Source: Deltaproteobacteria bacterium (GTDB lineage: Bacteria > Desulfobacterota > Desulfobacteria > Desulfobacterales > ETH-SRB1). Taken from it: a stretch of DNA of 7,899 nt. The DNA lies in contig JAFCZU010000141.1 of the NCBI GenBank assembly GCA_019314185.1, forward strand, positions 1 through 7,899, read 5' to 3'. How positions within the stretch are numbered: the first letter of the stretch is position 1; each line of letters begins with the position of its first letter. The position numbers and the translations under genes are program-made. Shown piece after piece: positions 1 through 7,899 of the stretch. The notes under the pieces are model-generated. The model saw only the letters and a list, made by a program, of their open reading frames with translations, was not told where the DNA came from and did no database searches.

Positions 1-146
1 GATGTTTCAAAAGATCTTCAAGGGGTAATGATTCTTTCTTTGACATAGCCAACCTCCAGAAATTTTGATCAAATATTATTTGAAAGGGGAAACTGTTTAT
101 GGTTCACGGTTGTCTGAAGCATTTTAACCGTTATTGTAAATGTAAG

Positions 147-287
147 CGTTCACGGAACGTTGAAATTAGAAAATAGAAATTGGAAATTGGAAATTTGGCC
201 TTCATGCTTTTGTACTGTTCTTCCCAATTTCTACTTTAATCTCTCCCAAATTTCTACTTTCCAATTTCAAGTTTCAAGCCGTGAACG
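147..287. repeat. Inverted-repeat (MITE-like) element with CGTTCACGG ends
   Basis: The ends are perfect 9-bp inverted copies: CGTTCACGG at 147-155 and CCGTGAACG at 279-287. Inside them, the left arm (about 160-198) is rich in GAAATTGGAAATT-type words, and the right arm (about 224-275) carries the complementary CCAATTTC/CAAATTTCTA words, so the element can fold as a long imperfect hairpin with a centre near 200-222. An additional end motif, GTTCACGG, lies at 102-109. There is no coding capacity, so if mobile it would depend on a transposase elsewhere. Dispersed repeats built from such GAAATTGGAAATT words occur in many environmental bacterial genomes (from memory). Mobility is inferred. Confidence 0.65.
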
Positions 288-370
288 ACTATCAATAAAT
301 ATACGCTGGAATTGATTTATATTCAACAGATAATTCGTTCTATATTTTACTCGCTCTTATCTGAATATGT

Positions 371-419
371 GTAAAAAATTACCATAAAATTATGTAAAAA
401 ATACCATAAAATTATGTAA
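371..419. repeat. Short AT-rich tandem repeat, 22-23 bp unit
   Basis: Two near-identical units follow each other at 371-393 and 394-415. They differ by a single T insertion and share the 18-base block TACCATAAAATTATGTAA at 380-397 and 402-419. A third copy is only hinted at (GTAATTTAC). The function is unknown; it could be slippage-derived or an AT-rich binding region. Confidence 0.7.
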
Positions 420-654
420 TTTACTTCACAATTTCACACTAAAATACATGGTATTGTGTTCCTAATTTTCTATAAAGAATTAATTAAATTTGTCCTGGAA
501 TTCTACCTCAATCTCAAGCCCTATTGGAATTATTCAAACTCTCCACTTCTATTTTTTACTGCATGAACCTGAAAATTTCGTAACACTTTAGCTTTTTGAA
601 AATATATCCGCTGTAGTTGAAAGAGGAAACAATTGAGTACTAACCATGAAGGAA

Positions 655-661
655 AAGGAGG
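655..661 (+). promoter_or_regulatory. Ribosome binding site of the S8 peptidase gene
   Basis: AAGGAGG lies nine bases before the ATG at 671. It fixes this ATG as the start. An out-of-frame ATG at 646 would give only a short 24-residue peptide and has no comparable site. Confidence 0.85.
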
Positions 662-670
662 AACCAAAAA

Positions 671-3600
671 ATGGCCAAGAAATACCCGGAACAAATAGTA
701 ATGGAAGGCATCACGTTTAAGAAGTCAGCTAACGAATTATATGTAGAGTTGCAGCCGGAATTAACCAAGATAGGCGTAGAGAAATTTCTTGATGAAAAGG
801 CAGCGCTTGTTCAATGGGAGTTCAAGCCAGATAATAGAAGAGCGCTAACGCTTCGGCAGTTCAATAAGACATCGACTCACTGCAAATGGCTATCGCTGGC
901 AAAGGGCAGAAAAGAGCTGGTCAATGACATAGCCAGCCAGCTCGAGGGTGACGAACGAGTCCGCGTCGCCGGACTGATATATGTGCGTGAAGACCTTAAA
1001 CATCCAAATGGCTTTACATTCGACGACCGGATAATTATCAGATTCGACGAGAAAGCAGCGAAAAAAGAGTTTCAGGCGCTTTTCAAAAAACTGGGCGTCG
1101 AAAAAGTGGAAGGCCCGCGAGGTGAATTGGGTAAGGGTTTAATGCTTGTACGAGTACTCGATACCCAGAAGCAGACTAGCTATGAGATAGCTCAGAAACT
1201 GGCTGAAGAGAAGATTGTCGAGTCTGCCAAAGTGAACTTGATTCAGCTGCACAGCGGTTTCACTGCTATCCCTAATGATACCTTTTTCACCAATCAGTGG
1301 AACCTTCGTAACACAGGGCAGGCCATGTCGGATGGAAATGTTGGTACGGCAGGATGTGACATCAACGTGGAACCTGCTTGGGATATATCTAAGGGGAGCC
1401 CACTTGTAGTAATCGCCATACTTGACAGCGGTTGTGACCTTGGCCACCAAGACCTAATGCCGAATTATGTACAGCGAGACCGAATGTACGACGCCTTGAC
1501 AGGCGGTAATAATGCGGATGATTATTATCGTCATGGGACTTGTGTTGCTGGTATTGCTTCATCGCGAACCAATTCATTGACAGCTCAAGGCGTAGCCGGG
1601 GTTGGTTGGCATTGCCGCATCATGCCAGTAGCAATACAGTTCAGTGAAGCCGAAATTGAGGCTTCTCTAAGATGGGCATTAAACAACCATGCAAACATCA
1701 TCAGTATGAGTTGGTACTGGGACGGGGCACATGCAGATATCGACACTTGTCTTCAAGATTGCTTTGATGCAGGGATAGTATTGGTCGCTGCCTCAGGTAA
1801 CAATGCAACAGGGGAACCGGATTTCATCTATTACCCGGCAAGCAACGCCAATGTTATTGCGGTCGGCGCCACAAATGAGAACGACGGTAGGTGTACCAGC
1901 ACGGATTGGGGGTTTGGCGGTAGTAACTACGGGCCAGAGCTCAGTGTAGTAGCCCCCGGCGTGCATACCTGGTCAACCGACATGAGAGGCCTGGGCGTTG
2001 GAAATGGGTACAACGATTCTTTTGGAGGTGGCGACGCTGCAGGTGACTACTATGAGGATTTCGGTGGCACGTCCGGTGCGACACCTCATGTAGCCGGGAT
2101 AGCAGGGCTTATGTTGGCCTACAACCCCACGCTAACGCCCGCCCAGATTCGTACCATTATCGAGGATACTGCGGACGACTTGGTGGGAGACCCGGCAGAG
2201 GATACGGCGGGATGGGACAAATACATGGGGCATGGCCGCATTAACGCGCATGCCGCGTTGGTGGAAGTGCAGACCAATCATCCGTTTAGCCCCGCAGACG
2301 TCTATATACGTGATTCGCTCTCTGACACTGGCACAGAGCCTTACATTGGCTCACCCTTGTGTTACAGCCCAGACATAATCATCCGTAAGAACGCAGTGGC
2401 TAATCCTCAAGCAGCCTTCGCGGATATGACGGTCGATCCAGGCAGTGATAACGTTGAGATCGGCAACGATAATTACATTTACGTCCGCGTGCACAACAAG
2501 GGGGCGGCAAATTCGGACATCCATGCACGGGTGCATTTTGCACCTCTAACCACAACCTGCGCGCCAGACTTGTGGGAATATATTGGTCAGGTCGATTTCC
2601 AGGATGTCCCGGCAGGCGGAAGTGCAGTTTCTGATGCAGTAGTGTGGGAGAATGTACCCGATCCCGGTTTAGTGGGTCACTTCTGCTTAATTGCAACAAT
2701 CGAGGGTTTTCGTGATCCTCAACCGGATCCGGTGGGCATCAGCAACGCTACACAGTACATGCAGTTTATCCGTGATCACAATAATATCTGCTATCGCAAT
2801 GTGGTGTTTGAAGATGTGTTGCCCGATACCATCTTGTCGTTAAATTTTTTACTGCCTGGTTTTGCCGGGGAGCTCAACAGATTCGATCTGAGGATTGAAA
2901 AAAAGGCTTTAGCCCTCCGCGCAAAAGTCGATGTCAGACTCCACCACGGCATGTTCAAGGATACGAGGGTTCACTTGGATCATGTGATCGAACGTATGGA
3001 AAGACCAGTAAAGGGATTCCGTGTTTTTGAACTTAAGGCAGAAAAGCGGCCCGCGATAAAGGGGCTAGTTGCCGCTCCACTTAGCCGAAACCTGGCGCAG
3101 TTGGACTTCAGGATTCCCGAAGATGCAAAACCAGGCGAGGTATACCGACTGGCAGTACAACAGGTCTTCAAGGAAGAAGTGATTGGCGATTTTCAGGTTA
3201 TGGGTAAAGTCGTCGATCCAAAGAAGGTGAAGTTCATTGCAGTTCGGGGAGACTATCTGGTGCATAAGGCAAACTGTAAATATCTGGAGAAGACCGCCAG
3301 GCAGTTATGGGCGCCCTTCGAATCTTTGGAAGCAGCCAAGGCAGTAGGTTATGATATGGCTCCCGATTGCCTTAACCAGCCTTTTACAGCAAAGGATATT
3401 TCGTATCGGCTTGCCCGCAGAATGCTTCATTACCTAAACCAAGTCGAACTAGCTGATGACTTGGACCAATTTATAAAAGGGACCTTAGATAAGAAGTATT
3501 TTGAAATGCGTTATGGCAAAGAAAGGACGAAAAAAAGAGGTCCCGACTTGGGAATTGATATATACAGAAATATCTTGGATGCGCGTGACGAGTTGGGAAG

Positions 3601-3682
3601 ATTCACTAAACTGGAGGAAATTGAGGAAGTGAAAGGTGTTGGCCCTGACGAGTTCATTGACCTGATCAATTCGTTCAAGTAG
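671..3682 (+). CDS. Subtilisin-family (S8) serine peptidase with beta-sandwich tail, Ada-like module and helix-hairpin-helix end
   Basis: A 1003-residue endopeptidase. The subtilase triad is clear: Asp252 in ILDSGCD, His288 in RHGTCVAG, Ser468 in GGTSGATPHVAG, with oxyanion Asn377 in ASGNN. Residues about 118-195 (IIIRFDEKA start, then an alpha/beta pattern ending VNLIQLHSG) resemble the fervidolysin-like prodomain that precedes many S8 domains; residues 10-117 are unassigned. After the catalytic domain (about 205-535) come a CARDB-like beta-sandwich (about 565-710) and a second beta-sandwich (about 711-850). These are followed by an Ada-like Cys/His module (about 855-903; His865, Cys869, Cys900) and a helix-hairpin-helix-like end (about 960-1003, EEVKGVGPDEF). 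No Sec signal peptide is visible (MAKKYPEQIVMEG), so location is uncertain: cytoplasmic, or exported by another route. The peptidase call is secure; the accessory domains are read by eye. Confidence 0.95.
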   Translation: MAKKYPEQIVMEGITFKKSANELYVELQPELTKIGVEKFLDEKAALVQWEFKPDNRRALTLRQFNKTSTHCKWLSLAKGRKELVNDIASQLEGDERVRVAGLIYVREDLKHPNGFTFDDRIIIRFDEKAAKKEFQALFKKLGVEKVEGPRGELGKGLMLVRVLDTQKQTSYEIAQKLAEEKIVESAKVNLIQLHSGFTAIPNDTFFTNQWNLRNTGQAMSDGNVGTAGCDINVEPAWDISKGSPLVVIAILDSGCDLGHQDLMPNYVQRDRMYDALTGGNNADDYYRHGTCVAGIASSRTNSLTAQGVAGVGWHCRIMPVAIQFSEAEIEASLRWALNNHANIISMSWYWDGAHADIDTCLQDCFDAGIVLVAASGNNATGEPDFIYYPASNANVIAVGATNENDGRCTSTDWGFGGSNYGPELSVVAPGVHTWSTDMRGLGVGNGYNDSFGGGDAAGDYYEDFGGTSGATPHVAGIAGLMLAYNPTLTPAQIRTIIEDTADDLVGDPAEDTAGWDKYMGHGRINAHAALVEVQTNHPFSPADVYIRDSLSDTGTEPYIGSPLCYSPDIIIRKNAVANPQAAFADMTVDPGSDNVEIGNDNYIYVRVHNKGAANSDIHARVHFAPLTTTCAPDLWEYIGQVDFQDVPAGGSAVSDAVVWENVPDPGLVGHFCLIATIEGFRDPQPDPVGISNATQYMQFIRDHNNICYRNVVFEDVLPDTILSLNFLLPGFAGELNRFDLRIEKKALALRAKVDVRLHHGMFKDTRVHLDHVIERMERPVKGFRVFELKAEKRPAIKGLVAAPLSRNLAQLDFRIPEDAKPGEVYRLAVQQVFKEEVIGDFQVMGKVVDPKKVKFIAVRGDYLVHKANCKYLEKTARQLWAPFESLEAAKAVGYDMAPDCLNQPFTAKDISYRLARRMLHYLNQVELADDLDQFIKGTLDKKYFEMRYGKERTKKRGPDLGIDIYRNILDARDELGRFTKLEEIEEVKGVGPDEFIDLINSFK

Positions 3683-3982
3683 GCAGAGCGCTGTATGCAG
3701 TAATTGGCCCTGATGTCTGCGGCCTGCACCGCTTGGGCGGAACCAAGGTCTACCCGACTGATTGGGATCCTGTGTTCTGGCCTGAATAGTTTGTACAGTG
3801 ATTATTTCGCAAGCAAAGCGAGCGCTTGGGGTTCACGTGCGATGGATATTCGTATCACTTTTCTGATGTGGAAAGTGACGCGGCTGCTGTGGGTCCATAA
3901 GGAAAATGGAGATTTATTTCATCCCTATGATGAACCTGTCACGACGTAGTTGTGCCCTAAAAACAAACAAATGGAGGAAGCT
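3683..3982. other. Intergenic gap with possible decayed coding remnant
   Basis: This is 300 bases between the S8 stop and the next good start. An 81-codon open stretch (3704-3949) exists but begins at TTG or ATG (3713) without a ribosome binding site and is rich in Trp, Cys and Ser, so I do not call it a gene. The neighbouring frame reads more like protein in two pieces, 3685-3786 (ending VYPTDWDPVFWPE) and 3802-3897 (including LGFTCDGYSYHFSDVE), separated by TAG (3787) and TGA (3799). Because both pieces are in the same frame, a small gene inactivated by nonsense changes is possible. No terminator with a T-run was found. Confidence 0.3.
3973..3977 (+). promoter_or_regulatory. Ribosome binding site deciding the start of the 116-aa protein
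   Basis: GGAGG sits five bases before ATG at 3983. The open frame extends upstream to a TTG at 3950, but that codon directly follows a stop and has no ribosome binding site, so the ATG at 3983 is preferred. Confidence 0.8.
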
Positions 3983-4333
3983 ATGATTGAATCGATTAAT
4001 AAATATGAAGTGATGTTATCTTCCCATCCTCAATTTAATGAATGGATAGCAAATATTCTATTGCGGAAGGACAACCGCATAATTGTGGACGTCCGATTTG
4101 TAGATAATCCGGACCTACTAGCTCAGTACGGAAGCATCAATGAAGGTGCTATTTCACTCGTCTATGTTGGCATGAAGCGCTTCTCTAATTTCCTCAATAT
4201 ACTCCAAAATGAGAAACCGCTATTCGTTCAGTTGGTGCATGCTTCCTCAAGCAACCCTGCCAGAATCCTACTCCGAACAGGGGCGGAACCCGTCGGCGAG
4301 CAGGAGCCGCGGAACCTATTTAGGATCACATAG
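3983..4333 (+). CDS. Small hypothetical protein, 116 aa
   Basis: I do not recognise this protein. It begins MIESINKYEV and has no signal peptide, lipobox or membrane segment, so it is probably cytoplasmic. The pattern suggests a mixed alpha/beta fold: a helix about 7-27, a strand at RIIVDVRFVD, a strand at ISLVYVGM, a helix around FSNFLNIL, then a strand at LFVQLVHA and a final basic/polar tail (ARILLRTGAEPVGE). There are no cysteines and no obvious catalytic motif. It lies 300 bases after the S8 gene and 189 bases before the lipoprotein, all on the same strand, so it may or may not be in their transcript. A role as partner or inhibitor of the S8 enzyme, which also lacks a signal peptide, is only a guess. 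The gene itself is well supported by its ribosome binding site and open frame. Confidence 0.7.
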   Translation: MIESINKYEVMLSSHPQFNEWIANILLRKDNRIIVDVRFVDNPDLLAQYGSINEGAISLVYVGMKRFSNFLNILQNEKPLFVQLVHASSSNPARILLRTGAEPVGEQEPRNLFRIT

Positions 4334-4440
4334 CCGTAAGACCTCGCTGCCATGGTACCGGGATAGCAGGAAATAAATAGGACAGGTTGTCGTCAAACAG
4401 TACACTGGTAAATGAAAAAAAACGTTAAACAATCAATCAC

Positions 4441-4486
4441 AACGGATGTCGGCGACAATTCATTCGTTGTTGTCGCCTACACCGTT
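4441..4486. repeat. Strong stem-loop between the small protein and the lipoprotein gene
   Basis: The core is GGCGACAA (4451-4458) pairing perfectly with TTGTCGCC (4470-4477) around an 11-base loop. It extends outward through a C/T mismatch, TGT/ACA, one bulged A, and AACGG (4441-4445) with CCGTT (4482-4486). No T-run follows on the + strand, so it is not a standard intrinsic terminator; an A8 run lies upstream at 4415-4422, too far for a clean minus-strand terminator. It sits about 25 bases before the lipoprotein ribosome binding site, so an mRNA-stability or leader role, or an operator, is possible. The structure is seen directly; the function is inferred. Confidence 0.6.
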
Positions 4487-4522
4487 TACTTCCCATAAAT
4501 TCAATCAGTTAAGGAGGAAATT

Positions 4523-5248
4523 ATGTCTAAACATCTAATCTGCAGGCTGGTAAGCATGTCTTGCGTTGTTGCTTTGGTGCTCTTGACTGGCTGTGAACCA
4601 AAGATAGAGGGCAAGCCGGTGAATCTTGAACCGAATGACCCCAGGCCGATCCTCAGTGTCCAAGTCGCGGATGCTGACGAAACGACGCTGCTCGTTCAGA
4701 AACTTGGTCTCGAGGTCGTTCGGATGGAAGGGCTTACCGTCTTCTTCTTCGAAGATGCCAACCAGCTACCCCACTTGGTTGATCTGGGTTATGACCTCAA
4801 AAGGCAGAATGCGTACGATGTATTCCGGCGTGTCGTCCGCATTGATCGCTCAGTTCCGGAAGCTGAATTGGTTGCCAATGGTGTGCGGATCATAAACCGT
4901 GAAAAACAATATCTAATTGTAGATGCCACAATAGGGCAGCTCAGAGCACTCGTACGCAGTGGCTCCCAAATCGTAGCGATTTCGGGGCATGAGCCACGTC
5001 CACGTCAGGTTCGAATCGCTGTGGAGAGCATGGAAGACGTGGCAAAAATCGGCGCTATGGAGGTCGACATCTATAGCGCCAAACCAGAACGTAAGGAATC
5101 GATCGACTCTCATCAGACCGTCCGCAAGGTCAAAATTGTGATCTATGGGGGAGCCTTTGATTACCAGATCGATCAGCTCAAGGACGTGGGTTATAACGTC
5201 GAGATATTACCGGAGCCTGCGCCTATAAAAAGAGGGGGACAATCATGA
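4523..5248 (+). CDS. Lipoprotein with three propeptide-like modules, partner of the downstream carboxypeptidase
   Basis: A 241-residue protein with a lipoprotein signal: basic start, hydrophobic stretch, then lipobox LLTGC with the modified Cys24. Glu rather than Asp follows the Cys, which in Gram-negatives would permit sorting to the outer membrane. AAGGAGG (4511-4517) lies five bases before the ATG. The rest reads as three related small alpha/beta units: about 43-97 (ILSVQVAD...LGLEVVRMEG...LVDLGYDL), 103-153 (VVRIDRS...GVRIINRE...LRALVRSGSQIVAI) and 162-229 (QVRIAVES...AMEVDIYSA...IDQLKDVGYNVEIL). This pattern of strand, helix, 'LG-x-V' strand, strand and helix ending in 'GY-x-V' resembles domains found N-terminal to many M14 carboxypeptidases. 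The stop overlaps the carboxypeptidase ATG, so the two are coupled. There is no catalytic motif. Role as a trans-acting propeptide, chaperone or inhibitor is inference. Confidence 0.85.
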   Translation: MSKHLICRLVSMSCVVALVLLTGCEPKIEGKPVNLEPNDPRPILSVQVADADETTLLVQKLGLEVVRMEGLTVFFFEDANQLPHLVDLGYDLKRQNAYDVFRRVVRIDRSVPEAELVANGVRIINREKQYLIVDATIGQLRALVRSGSQIVAISGHEPRPRQVRIAVESMEDVAKIGAMEVDIYSAKPERKESIDSHQTVRKVKIVIYGGAFDYQIDQLKDVGYNVEILPEPAPIKRGGQS

Positions 5249-7053
5249 AAAAGTGGATTAAAAGTACGTTGTGGGCTTTCAGCCTCACATTTGCGTTGTC
5301 CGGGTTATCGCATGCTGATATCGACTTCAGTAACTTTCACAGTCCGAGTCAGGTCGATACAATTTTAAATGAGCTAGTTGCGGCCTATCCGGGGCTAGCC
5401 CAACTGTCAACCATTGGTACAAGCCATGGTGGGATGCCCATCAAAGCACTTAAAATCTCCGATAACGTGGCGACGGATGAATCTGACGAAGGCGATGTAC
5501 TTTTCGTTGCCATGCATCATGCGCGTGAATGGATCAGTGTCGAAATGGCTTTGTATCTCGCGGAACAAATTCTATCCCAATATTCTACCAACCCCCAGCT
5601 ACAAGCAGACGTCAACAACCTCGAGATCTGGATTGTTCCGGTCGTCAACCCCGATGGATTTGCCTACACTTGGTCCCCGTCGGGCTATCGTTTCTGGCGT
5701 AAGAACCGACGAAACAACGGAGATGGGACTTTTGGTGTTGATCTGAACCGGAACTGGGGCTACGAGTGGGGCCTTTCGAGTGGTTCCTCGGGAAGCACAA
5801 GTAGTGACACGTATCGTGGGCCCGCAGCATTCAGCGAGCCTGAAATCTCGGCGTTAAGAACATTCGTCAATGGCCTCGATAACCTGAAGACCATGTTGAC
5901 CTACCACAGCTTCAGCGAGCTTTTTCTGCGTCCGTGGGGTTACACCACAATGGACGCCTCTGGGGAAAAAACGCTCCGGCAGCTTGCGTTGCGGAGTATC
6001 AATGTAATACAGGCAGTGCATGGACACACATATTCAGAGACGATCGGATACACTGCTTCGGGAGAGACCACGGACTGGTTTTGGGGAGAACATCGTGTTT
6101 CCGCATTCACGCCCGAGTTGAGGCCTGCCTCTGGAGGCTTGGGTGGGTTCGACCCTCCACCTGCGGAGATTGTACCGAGCAATCAAGAGAACCTGCCAGC
6201 GGCTCTGGCGTTGATACATGATGCAGGCGCGAGAGAATTGTGGATGAAAGACTATGCGGCAGACACTGGGGTGGAACCTTCGGCCGTGTGGACGGGTACA
6301 AATTGGAGCCATGCATTCTGGGTAAGTCCGGATATCTGGACTGTTCCGGCTACCCTTGATCAGGGCGCCACTGTCGATTTGAACATCCGCATTCGAAACA
6401 ATACAGGGACTACCCAAACCAACGTGCGGTTGGACATTTACTACACTGACCCGCGGATCTCACTTGAGTTTCCGAACCCGGATGCTACACTCATTGCCAG
6501 CCAAACGTCGTTGACCGTTCCAGCTGGGGGTATGACGGTGACGGTACCCTGGACTGTACCAGTTGGTACAAATAGTTGGGGCGAACGGCATTGGTGTGTT
6601 GGTGCCATAGTCATGCATGATAGCGACCTTCCGCTCACGACAGAGGCGCGGCGGAGCAGTAATGTTGCCATTCGAAACTTAAACACAACGGAGACTGTTG
6701 TTGGAACGAACTTACTAGTTGCGGCAACAAATTATCTTGATGTTGATGCGGAACTCATGGTTTCTGTTGATGATCTTCCACCTGGCTGGCAGGTCGTGTT
6801 GCCTCAACGCCCCAAGCCAGTCGAAAGAAAAAAGCTTACTTCTATTGAGCGCAAGGGATTACTTGTGGGAGCAAAGGGTCGTTTGCTTCGACCTGGGGAT
6901 ACTATCTATTTACCTGTTCGCGTCATTCCGCCGAGTACAGCACGCACTGGTGATAAGGTTGACATAAACGTTCACGGCGGCCTTCTGCCATTGGTGGCAG
7001 GCAAACGTACGGCCGTAGGTAACGGGTTTACCTATCAAGTTGTAGTTCCATAA
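5245..7053 (+). CDS. Secreted zinc carboxypeptidase (family M14, carboxypeptidase T/A-like) with C-terminal beta-sandwich tail
   Basis: A 602-residue enzyme that removes C-terminal residues from peptides. A Sec signal peptide (about 1-24, ending LSHA) is followed at once by the catalytic domain (about 25-335). Zinc ligands are His92 and Glu95 (HHAREW) and His221 (YHSFSE). The catalytic glutamate is Glu291 (FTPEL). Substrate-binding residues are Arg149 and Arg152 (YRFWRKNR), Asn168-Arg169 (DLNRNWG) and Tyr269. All key residues are present, so it should be active. The S1' pocket segment ASGETTDW has Glu274 where carboxypeptidase T carries an Asp, hinting that basic as well as hydrophobic C-termini may be accepted. 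No prodomain lies between signal and catalytic domain, unlike carboxypeptidase A/B/T precursors. Residues about 361-480 and 481-602 form two beta-sandwich modules resembling those in the S8 peptidase upstream. An ATGA overlap and GAGGGGG ribosome binding site link it to the lipoprotein gene. Confidence 0.96.
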   Translation: MKKWIKSTLWAFSLTFALSGLSHADIDFSNFHSPSQVDTILNELVAAYPGLAQLSTIGTSHGGMPIKALKISDNVATDESDEGDVLFVAMHHAREWISVEMALYLAEQILSQYSTNPQLQADVNNLEIWIVPVVNPDGFAYTWSPSGYRFWRKNRRNNGDGTFGVDLNRNWGYEWGLSSGSSGSTSSDTYRGPAAFSEPEISALRTFVNGLDNLKTMLTYHSFSELFLRPWGYTTMDASGEKTLRQLALRSINVIQAVHGHTYSETIGYTASGETTDWFWGEHRVSAFTPELRPASGGLGGFDPPPAEIVPSNQENLPAALALIHDAGARELWMKDYAADTGVEPSAVWTGTNWSHAFWVSPDIWTVPATLDQGATVDLNIRIRNNTGTTQTNVRLDIYYTDPRISLEFPNPDATLIASQTSLTVPAGGMTVTVPWTVPVGTNSWGERHWCVGAIVMHDSDLPLTTEARRSSNVAIRNLNTTETVVGTNLLVAATNYLDVDAELMVSVDDLPPGWQVVLPQRPKPVERKKLTSIERKGLLVGAKGRLLRPGDTIYLPVRVIPPSTARTGDKVDINVHGGLLPLVAGKRTAVGNGFTYQVVVP

Positions 7054-7087
7054 AGTCTATACACCTCCAAAGGAAGATAATTGCCTA

Positions 7088-7157
7088 TAGGGATAGGGAC
7101 ACCCATCGCTGAGCGCCCCTCCCACACCACCGGACTTACGGATCACGTATCCGTTAG
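7088..7157 (-). mobile_element. Probable relic of a group II intron 3' end (domains V-VI)
   Basis: On the minus strand the segment reads ...ACGGATACGTGATCCG, then TAAGTCCGGTGGTGTGGGAGGGGCG. This resembles, from memory, the domain V hairpin and following linker of bacterial group II introns (typically GCCGGATGCGGG...CACGTCCGGTGGTGTGGGAGGGG). The tip stem (ACG/CGT) and base stem still pair but are shortened and altered. The next part can form a domain VI-like stem, GGGAGGGG (plus 7116-7123) with CCCTATCCCT (plus 7089-7098), leaving an unpaired A in the 3' arm. No reverse transcriptase reading frame lies upstream on the minus strand within the window, so only a fragment remains. The alternative is a chance or other structured repeat. 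Confidence 0.5.
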
Positions 7158-7207
7158 ACTTGCGGGACGTACATAAGTTGAGGTGAGTAGACTTGCGGGA
7201 CGTACAT
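7155..7207. repeat. Pair of 20-bp direct repeats, 33-bp period
   Basis: The block TAGACTTGCGGGACGTACAT occurs at 7155-7174 and again, identical, at 7188-7207. The sequence between continues as AAGTTGAGGTGAG, and a related ATAAGTTGA word recurs after the second copy (7173-7181 and 7213-7221). This looks like two units of a decaying tandem array, directly abutting the intron-like relic. No function is evident. Confidence 0.75.
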
Positions 7208-7283
7208 TAGTTTATAAGTTGACGTGGTAATTGAACTAAAAAAGGTAGTTGACTATGTTGAATAATTGTAAGGATAAAGCCAA

Positions 7284-7405
7284 GTAGGTTGGTTGAGGAA
7301 CGAAACCCAACATCAACAATTGCACGAAATTGCAAAATGATCGAGAGAACAATATCGGTGCAACAACCATATTTTGTTGGGTTTCGCAAGCTCAACCCAA
7401 CCTAC
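7284..7405. repeat. GTAGGTTGG-type terminal inverted-repeat element (122 bp)
   Basis: The left arm at 7284-7313 (GTAGGTTGGTTGAGG...CGAAACCCAACA) and the right arm at 7375-7405 (TGTTGGGTTTCG...CTCAACCCAACCTAC) are near-perfect inverted copies, about 30 bp each; the left arm lacks one G and the short CGAAAC-adjacent spacer differs slightly. The 61-base centre has no gene. Repeats with this GTAGGTTGGGTTGAG/CGAAACCCAACA signature are widespread in cyanobacteria and other bacteria (from memory) and are likely non-autonomous mobile or palindromic elements. Confidence 0.8.
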
Positions 7406-7583
7406 AAGCTTAATCATAAATTTTGGCGGGAATCAATTAGATGGGATTGTGGAAGGATTCGGTACCAGTTATTTAGGGACTTATCACCCGGATGTCCGTT
7501 TCCGAGCCCAATTTATCGCAAGGAGGGCCAAGGTAGAAAATAGTACGGCTGAGGGAAAAGTCTTTCCAAATTTTGCCAAATAA

Positions 7584-7600
7584 TCAGATTTAAAATCTGA
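7584..7600. repeat. Perfect 17-base palindrome
   Basis: TCAGATTTAAAATCTGA has 8-base arms around one central base. It lies about 115 bases before the beta-helix gene start. It could be an operator for a dimeric regulator or a dispersed palindromic repeat; as a hairpin it is AT-rich and weak, and no T-run follows, so it is not a terminator. Confidence 0.55.
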
Positions 7601-7700
7601 GCTATCGGCTTTGCGCCTTGGTTAAAGTTAGACATTACACGGGGTATTTTATCGTCGAATAATCTCAAATAAGACACTTTTCTACAGAAACCAACTGAAA

Positions 7701-7709
7701 AAGGAGGTG
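7701..7709 (+). promoter_or_regulatory. Very strong ribosome binding site
   Basis: AAGGAGGTG is a nine-base perfect match to the usual 16S rRNA 3' end and stands five bases before the ATG at 7715. It supports that start and suggests efficient translation. Confidence 0.85.
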
Positions 7710-7714
7710 CCATC

Positions 7715-7899
7715 ATGTCAAAATATGTTGGTCAAATCTTAGGTCGGAATCTTAGCCTGAAAGTTCTTTCGTTTATCCTGACGACACTGTTTTTGGGGAA
7801 CACGGCTATAGCGGCTGTCATCAAGGTGCCAAATGATCATCCTTCAATACAGTCGGCTATCAATGCGGCGAAATCAGGAGACGTCATTTGGGTGAAGGA
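7715..7899 (+). CDS. Secreted right-handed beta-helix (pectin-lyase-fold) protein, 5' part only
   Basis: Sixty-one codons are visible before the window ends. A Sec signal peptide is clear: basic start (MSKYVGQILGRNLSLK), hydrophobic core (VLSFILTTLFLG), and a likely cut in NTAIAA near residue 33. The mature start IKVPNDHPSIQSAINAAKSGDVIWVKE matches the well-known opening of parallel beta-helix repeat proteins (VP-x-D-x-P-[ST]-IQ-x-AI-x-A-A-x-x-GD-x-[IV]-x-V). Such proteins are often cell-surface polysaccharide-binding or carbohydrate-active proteins, or carry C-terminal anchoring or CARDB-like domains, but the function cannot be told from this part. It is separated from the carboxypeptidase gene by 661 bases with repeats, so it probably has its own promoter. 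Confidence 0.85.
   Translation, partial: MSKYVGQILGRNLSLKVLSFILTTLFLGNTAIAAVIKVPNDHPSIQSAINAAKSGDVIWVK

Follow-up and report, generated by a model that had tools for sequence, protein, structure and literature searches.

The window analysed here is a stretch of 7,899 nucleotides from a Deltaproteobacteria bacterium (GTDB lineage Desulfobacterota; Desulfobacterales; ETH-SRB1; assembly GCA_019314185.1, contig JAFCZU010000141.1, positions 1 to 7,899 of the forward strand), and its element of interest is a pair of overlapping genes encoding a lipoprotein and a carboxypeptidase of family M14. The two probably form a two-gene carboxypeptidase system in which the prodomain function has been split off into the separate lipoprotein, a reading to which we assign a probability of roughly 0.6. 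The features of the pair are as follows.

4523..5248, + strand: lipoprotein gene with ATG start, 241 amino acids, three predicted tandem prodomain-like modules (open reading frame (ORF), AlphaFold2, homologues)
4523..4594, + strand: signal peptide and lipobox LTGC with Cys24, the signal ending LLTGC-E (sequence)
4640..4816, + strand: predicted module 1, about residues 40-98 (strands 43-47, 65-69, 72-76 and 93-95; helices 51-61 and 82-87; AlphaFold2, hhalign)
4817..4990, + strand: predicted module 2, about residues 99-156 (AlphaFold2, hhalign, hmmsearch)
4997..5221, + strand: predicted module 3, about residues 159-233, with VDIYS and GAFDxQID (AlphaFold2, alignment, hhalign, hmmsearch)
5245..5248, + strand: ATGA stop/start overlap, recurring in L003 and L004 (sequence)
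5245..7053, + strand: M14 carboxypeptidase of the carboxypeptidase T/carboxypeptidase A (CPT/CPA) type, 602 amino acids, apparent signal peptide, no prodomain (PF00246, CPT match)
5320..6219, + strand: M14 catalytic domain, about residues 26-325 (CPT match, residue alignment)
6220..7050, + strand: M14 C-terminal region, about residues 326-602, possibly NEW3-like (a weak match to PF10633, E 0.19, below cut-off)
4424..7117, + strand: block shared with the nearest genome, holding the lipoprotein and M14 genes only (blastn, 98.3% identical to L003 5867-8559)

The motif AAGGAGG (4511-4517) precedes the start of the lipoprotein gene and GAGGGGGA (5232-5239) precedes the ATG of the M14 gene. The downstream product carries the marks of an M14 metallocarboxypeptidase, namely PF00246 across residues 40-318 (E 5.5e-74), the HxxE motif, the distal His and the catalytic Glu, and its zinc ligands and catalytic residues, which by analogy with CPA numbering we take to be H92, E95 and H221 (zinc ligands) and R152, N168, R169, Y263 and E291 of the window protein, are unchanged in 16 of 16 aligned rows, the window included. 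Carboxypeptidases A and B are classic examples of zymogens, restrained by a covalently attached prodomain. The window enzyme does not follow this layout: its apparent signal peptide, read by eye as ending at about residue 24, leads directly into the catalytic domain, and the match to its closest solved relative, carboxypeptidase T, begins at residue 29 (E 6.8e-69). Both this and the ATGA overlap at 5245-5248 had been noted in a preliminary description of the locus and are borne out. The catalytic domain begins at about residue 15-44 in 114 of the 120 listed M14 homologues (from at least 7990 scored), P0171, a C-terminal fusion, included; three of the remaining six are apparently truncated at the N-terminus and three have the lipoprotein domain in front. 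The lack of a prodomain is thus the usual state of this subfamily among the listed homologues.

Homologues of the lipoprotein fall into 52 clusters that are 35-91% identical in a protein search, and the lipobox pattern was found in 42 of them. Of the ten others, five have a start internal to the protein, three carry a Cys in a near-lipobox, and two (P0041 and P0051) lack a lipobox. No Pfam or NCBIfam model reached its cut-off in the members tested. AlphaFold2, run with an alignment of 50 sequences (the window and 49 of the 52 homologues, the fragments P0030, P0037 and P0038 being excluded), predicted the structure with a mean predicted local distance difference test score (pLDDT) of 87.3 and with 178 of the 241 residues at 90 or above. 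The model contains three tandem beta-alpha-beta-beta-alpha-beta modules at residues 43-95, 102-152 and 161-229, with the linker EPRPRQ ahead of the third. M14 propeptides have the same order of elements in an open sandwich, and the predicted modules agree with this fold order. The module that the preliminary description had delimited at residues 162-229 coincides with the third of these, and two more precede it. A Foldseek search with the model returned weak and scattered ferredoxin-like matches (best 50 of 857 matches plus 50 VIA rows). Among the matches listed, chain B of 3wqb (99 residues, presumably ORF2 of the ASP-ORF2 protease complex) was weakly similar, with a probability of 1.00 but an E of 0.089. 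Since the structure matches are weak and scattered, the fold by itself leaves kinship with M14 prodomains unsettled.

Hidden Markov models (HMMs) of the modules were built from the lipoprotein family alone and run on 508 ORFs, several copies of one locus included, and their best foreign matches were domains lying directly N-terminal to other M14 catalytic domains: module 1 and module 2 matched such a domain of a Sinorhizobium M14 protein (E 0.014 and 3.4e-4, respectively) and module 3 one of Paraburkholderia (E 2.1e-4), with E-values that are valid for this small set only. These domains come from 27 plasmid records matching M14, 13 of which were read; nine had an N-terminal domain in the prodomain position, judged by eye, and eight were used, Embleya L014 being excluded as a near-duplicate of L013. 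The other four lack an N-terminal domain, L018, L019 and L020 having no signal peptide and L022 a signal-like start. When aligned by hhalign with the eight domains together, modules 1, 2 and 3 gave 92.0%, 92.3% and 88.9%, and the modules compared with one another gave lower values (25, 30 and 19%). Controls stayed far below, the highest values being 1.25% for 150 column shuffles, 0.2% for reversed profiles, 0.53% for the prodomain of the window's own S8 subtilase, and 3.0% for the C-terminal domain of EF-G (20 sequences), which we take to belong to the same fold class as the modules. Compared singly, the domains of Sinorhizobium, Paraburkholderia and Variovorax reached 94%, 88% and 73% with their best module. 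Dropping either Sinorhizobium or Paraburkholderia left 78-95%, and dropping both left 78, 49 and 68%. On these profile comparisons, the kinship of the modules to M14 N-terminal domains looks real but distant.

The two genes are also linked across genomes. The longest contig of 17 of the 52 lipoprotein clusters has exactly the size of the contig of one of the 120 listed M14 homologues, and a chance control with sizes offset by 1-10 bases produced 0-2 matching pairs; with a single contig, the longest, visible per cluster, 17 is probably an undercount. Adding P0053 (on the contig of L003), P0096 (on the contig of L004) and four fusions, a partner was seen for 23 of the 120. The genes are adjacent in the window, L003 and L004. 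L003 and the L004 pair, which is 64% identical, show the ATGA overlap as well, and translational coupling is likely. On visual inspection, P0002 and P0007 end in GDNHEKVD, a shifted-frame reading of the start of the window's M14 gene, indicating that their genes overlap an M14 gene too. Such an adjacent, conserved partner gene is the arrangement of a protease with a propeptide analogue encoded in trans. Prodomains diverge faster than their enzymes, and the excess seen here is comparable: in 22 pairs (the window, the 17 size-matched pairs and the four fusions) the pairwise difference between lipoproteins exceeds that between M14 proteins 1.7-fold on average. The pairwise divergences of the two proteins correlate with r 0.93, a value reached in 0 of 2000 permutations, which indicates that partners have not been swapped; a high r is also expected from co-inheritance alone and says nothing on whether the proteins touch.

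The block shared with the nearest genome stops abruptly on both sides. Beyond it only three short stretches are 82-87% alike (window 157-541), and the neighbours are otherwise different, with an S8 gene in the window and a C25 gene, which has its own C25 propeptide, in L003. The two genes have been kept together as a unit while their surroundings changed. No obvious terminal repeats of the block were seen by eye. Just past its end, the window holds two 25-base direct repeats (7155-7212) that are 96% alike with a spacing of 33.

Natural fusions join the same parts in a single chain. In P0132, P0134 and P0165 (800 amino acids) the three modules lie N-terminal to the M14 domain and the lipobox is kept, and in P0171 (805 amino acids) the three-module domain follows the C-terminal region, at about residues 615-805, and has no lipobox. 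Fusion in both orders argues strongly for a shared function of the modules and the enzyme, and P0171 indicates that the modules need not precede it. The N-terminal portion of P0132, used as a query, retrieved only the three N-terminal fusions and missed P0171, which holds the domain, and the list of fusions is therefore a lower bound. AlphaFold modelled P0132 from a 21-row alignment with a mean pLDDT of 63 and a predicted template modelling score of 0.38; the modules were mostly at 87-95 and the catalytic core was unformed, owing to only two further M14 rows in the alignment, which leaves the packing of the modules unreadable. The adjacent pairs and fused versions that the preliminary description had proposed looking for thus exist.

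Several observations weigh against a split zymogen. First, the profile kinship rests mainly on three domains, as seen from the single-domain and leave-out comparisons: only three of the eight reach 69% or more singly with some module, those of Embleya, Streptomyces and Nonomuraea reach only 27-38%, those of Streptomyces lunaelactis and Streptantibioticus about 8% or less, and dropping Sinorhizobium, Paraburkholderia and Variovorax together lowers the values to 49, 45 and 6%. The eight domains came out of a tblastn search that used the fusion P0132 as query, which biases the selection mildly in favour of the kinship; they are putative prodomains, judged by position, and the Sinorhizobium protein has no evident signal peptide. 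PF02244 (Propep_M14) matched none of 25 lipoprotein family members and gave nothing above cut-off in 38 relatives, and no solved M14 propeptide was matched by module sequence. The earlier suggestion that the modules resemble units found ahead of M14 domains therefore stands for bacterial M14 N-terminal domains and fails for PF02244 and, by sequence, for the solved propeptides. Second, 97 of the 120 listed M14 homologues have no partner in view, be it through real absence or limited visibility, and Rossellomorea L022 encodes a prodomain-less M14 with a signal-like N-terminus whose upstream ORF has no listed module match. Third, the C-terminal position of the modules in P0171 is unusual for a propeptide, and the model of a cleaved N-terminal propeptide misfits some members. 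Finally, human CPO is a prodomain-less M14 enzyme that is active unaided (PMC6214572).

Among the alternatives, a self-protection inhibitor of the potempin type fares best and is a serious, though less probable, contender. The lipoprotein would block stray enzyme in the envelope and have no folding or zymogen role, and its prodomain likeness would reflect a recruited domain. The gene order is that of the potempin-KLIKK operons (PMC7296668, PMC4404884), and Spi, a propeptide analogue, adjoins SpeB (PMC2873492); on the other hand, a guard would not need so close a 1:1 assembly as the conserved one-to-one linkage, the gene overlap and the fusions suggest, although this is not decisive. Both readings include inhibition, and their odds are not exclusive. 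Rather unlikely is a tether or scaffold, by which the lipoprotein would only anchor the enzyme or position its substrate, with no part in inhibition or folding: the lipobox is widespread in the family and makes the N-terminal fusions themselves lipoproteins, but P0171, P0041 and P0051 retain the modules with no anchor, and the module profiles resemble M14 N-terminal domains. A co-transcribed bystander with a separate envelope job beside a constitutively active M14, as the unaided activity of CPO and the many homologues with no seen partner (contig sizes alone being visible) would allow, is very improbable given the fusions in both orders, the 17 pairs, the r of 0.93 and the 2.7-kb block holding both genes.

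That the lipoprotein and the M14 enzyme work together is argued by layout, predicted fold, profile kinship, linkage, co-divergence and fusions, and the later steps of the split-prodomain reading are put forward conditionally. The lipoprotein would be produced first and gain an envelope anchor; after export, the enzyme would fold against the lipoprotein's modules. These may bind and cover the active-site side, like cis prodomains, and the bound enzyme would be held inactive at the membrane or envelope until armed by dissociation or by degradation of the lipoprotein. Inhibition with cell protection is most likely the role, folding help comes second, and tethering would be a by-product of the lipid anchor. 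In a further-reaching version, which we regard as tentative, the M14 zymogen would have been split at least twice, the usually lipidated chain of modules would be both obligate folding partner and reversible inhibitor, arming would occur by leaving the membrane instead of by propeptide cleavage, and the fusions in both orders would be re-joined or ancestral forms.

Comparable arrangements are known for other protease families. Spi is a trans-encoded propeptide analogue beside the protease gene speB and is co-transcribed with it (PMC2873492). SpeB is a C10 cysteine protease, whereas the window enzyme belongs to M14. SpeB also keeps its own prodomain, and Spi is not known to be a three-module lipoprotein. 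In Aeromonas, the product of the neighbouring gene ORF2 is required for maturation of the protease ASP and inhibits it, and ASP is called 'propeptide-deficient' in a title in the reference list of PMC5638518; unlike the window pair, ASP is an S8 subtilase, the ORF2 gene lies downstream, and it is the C-terminal end of ORF2 that contacts the catalytic site (PMC5638518). In the loci of the Tannerella potempins, as in the window, the gene immediately ahead of that for a secreted protease encodes a lipoprotein (PMC7296668, PMC4404884), and specific inhibition by potempins is stated as unpublished data in PMC7296668. They serve other protease families, and excerpts of the two papers mention no prodomain kinship of potempins; the window enzyme ends in FTYQVVVP and not in the KLIKK motif. 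A metzincin gene paired with a TIMP-like lipoprotein likewise couples a secreted metalloprotease to an inhibitor-like lipoprotein, but the metzincin is not M14 and the TIMP-like protein is not prodomain-like (PMC8235301). M14 proteins with a cis prodomain, and those of Sinorhizobium, Streptomyces, Nonomuraea, Embleya, Variovorax and Paraburkholderia, share the catalytic domain and the module profile. They differ in architecture, with a single module on the enzyme's own chain where the window has three on a separate, lipidated protein. No trans prodomain for an M14 enzyme appeared among the papers listed by searches of the open-access literature, outside which most subscription papers lie. The statement in the preliminary description that no system of this layout had been described was too strong, as propeptide analogues acting in trans (SpeB-Spi, ASP-ORF2) and lipoprotein inhibitors from genes just ahead of proteases (potempins) were already in print; the principle is known, and the M14 case appears to be new. 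If the reading is true, M14 would become a further protease family whose propeptide analogue comes from a separate gene, and the natural split form and its fused relatives of either order would allow folding, inhibition and membrane retention to be studied one by one. It would also propose a function for a lipoprotein family in which the members tested have no Pfam or NCBIfam match above cut-off.

Both proteins are rare among the genomes sampled. The lipoprotein was found in 1 of 58 relatives and in 1 of 395 genomes of the phylum. The M14 protein (E 1e-60 or better) was found in 2 of 247 genomes and, for the phylum of G447, in 1 of the 299 sampled. In all three M14-bearing genomes (G001, G447 and G089) the M14 protein lacks a cis prodomain, and a certain or candidate module gene lies directly upstream. 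In G001 and G447 this is the lipoprotein gene, only the last part of which is visible in G447. In G089 (L007 555-1430) a different protein of 291 amino acids is encoded upstream of a distant M14, with an apparent signal peptide, two candidate modules and a HEAT-like part (PF13646, narrowly under the cut-off). A second genome of that genus, G126, has a like arrangement (L057 1501-2388), with a protein of 295 amino acids encoded 23 bases ahead of the M14 gene. The first candidate module of this protein gave 66% against the eight M14 N-terminal domains; the second gave no match (0.3%), which again counts against a split zymogen. It is possible that the HEAT-plus-module protein and the distant, prodomain-less M14 represent an independent second split zymogen. 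Among viral contigs, 22 pattern matches included no relatives.

Two further genes lie upstream of the pair in the window.

671-3682, + strand: S8 subtilase, 1003 amino acids (window ORF)
about 3983-4333, + strand: small protein (window ORF)

The small protein belongs to a family of about 103-116 amino acids with no evident signal peptide, found at 3983-4333 in the window, 5068-5379 in L003 and 4888-5289 in L062. Its gene lies downstream of the S8 gene in the window, and downstream of the C25 gene in L003. In L062 it precedes another lipoprotein-like ORF. The window and L003 proteins are 26% identical (pairwise E 5e-10), and neither has a Pfam or NCBIfam family above cut-off. A part in the protease system was considered for this ORF and rejected, as a second relative in G001 adjoins other genes. 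A role of the lipoprotein for the S8 protease encoded upstream is disfavoured, since the nearest genome has C25 at that place and the modules are unlike the S8 prodomain. The S8 subtilase itself has no evident signal peptide and carries a C-terminal helix-hairpin-helix region (PF12836, below cut-off). The Streptomyces plasmid L002 likewise has an S8 peptidase gene (1-621) immediately ahead of its M14 gene, comparable to the S8 gene upstream of the pair in the window.

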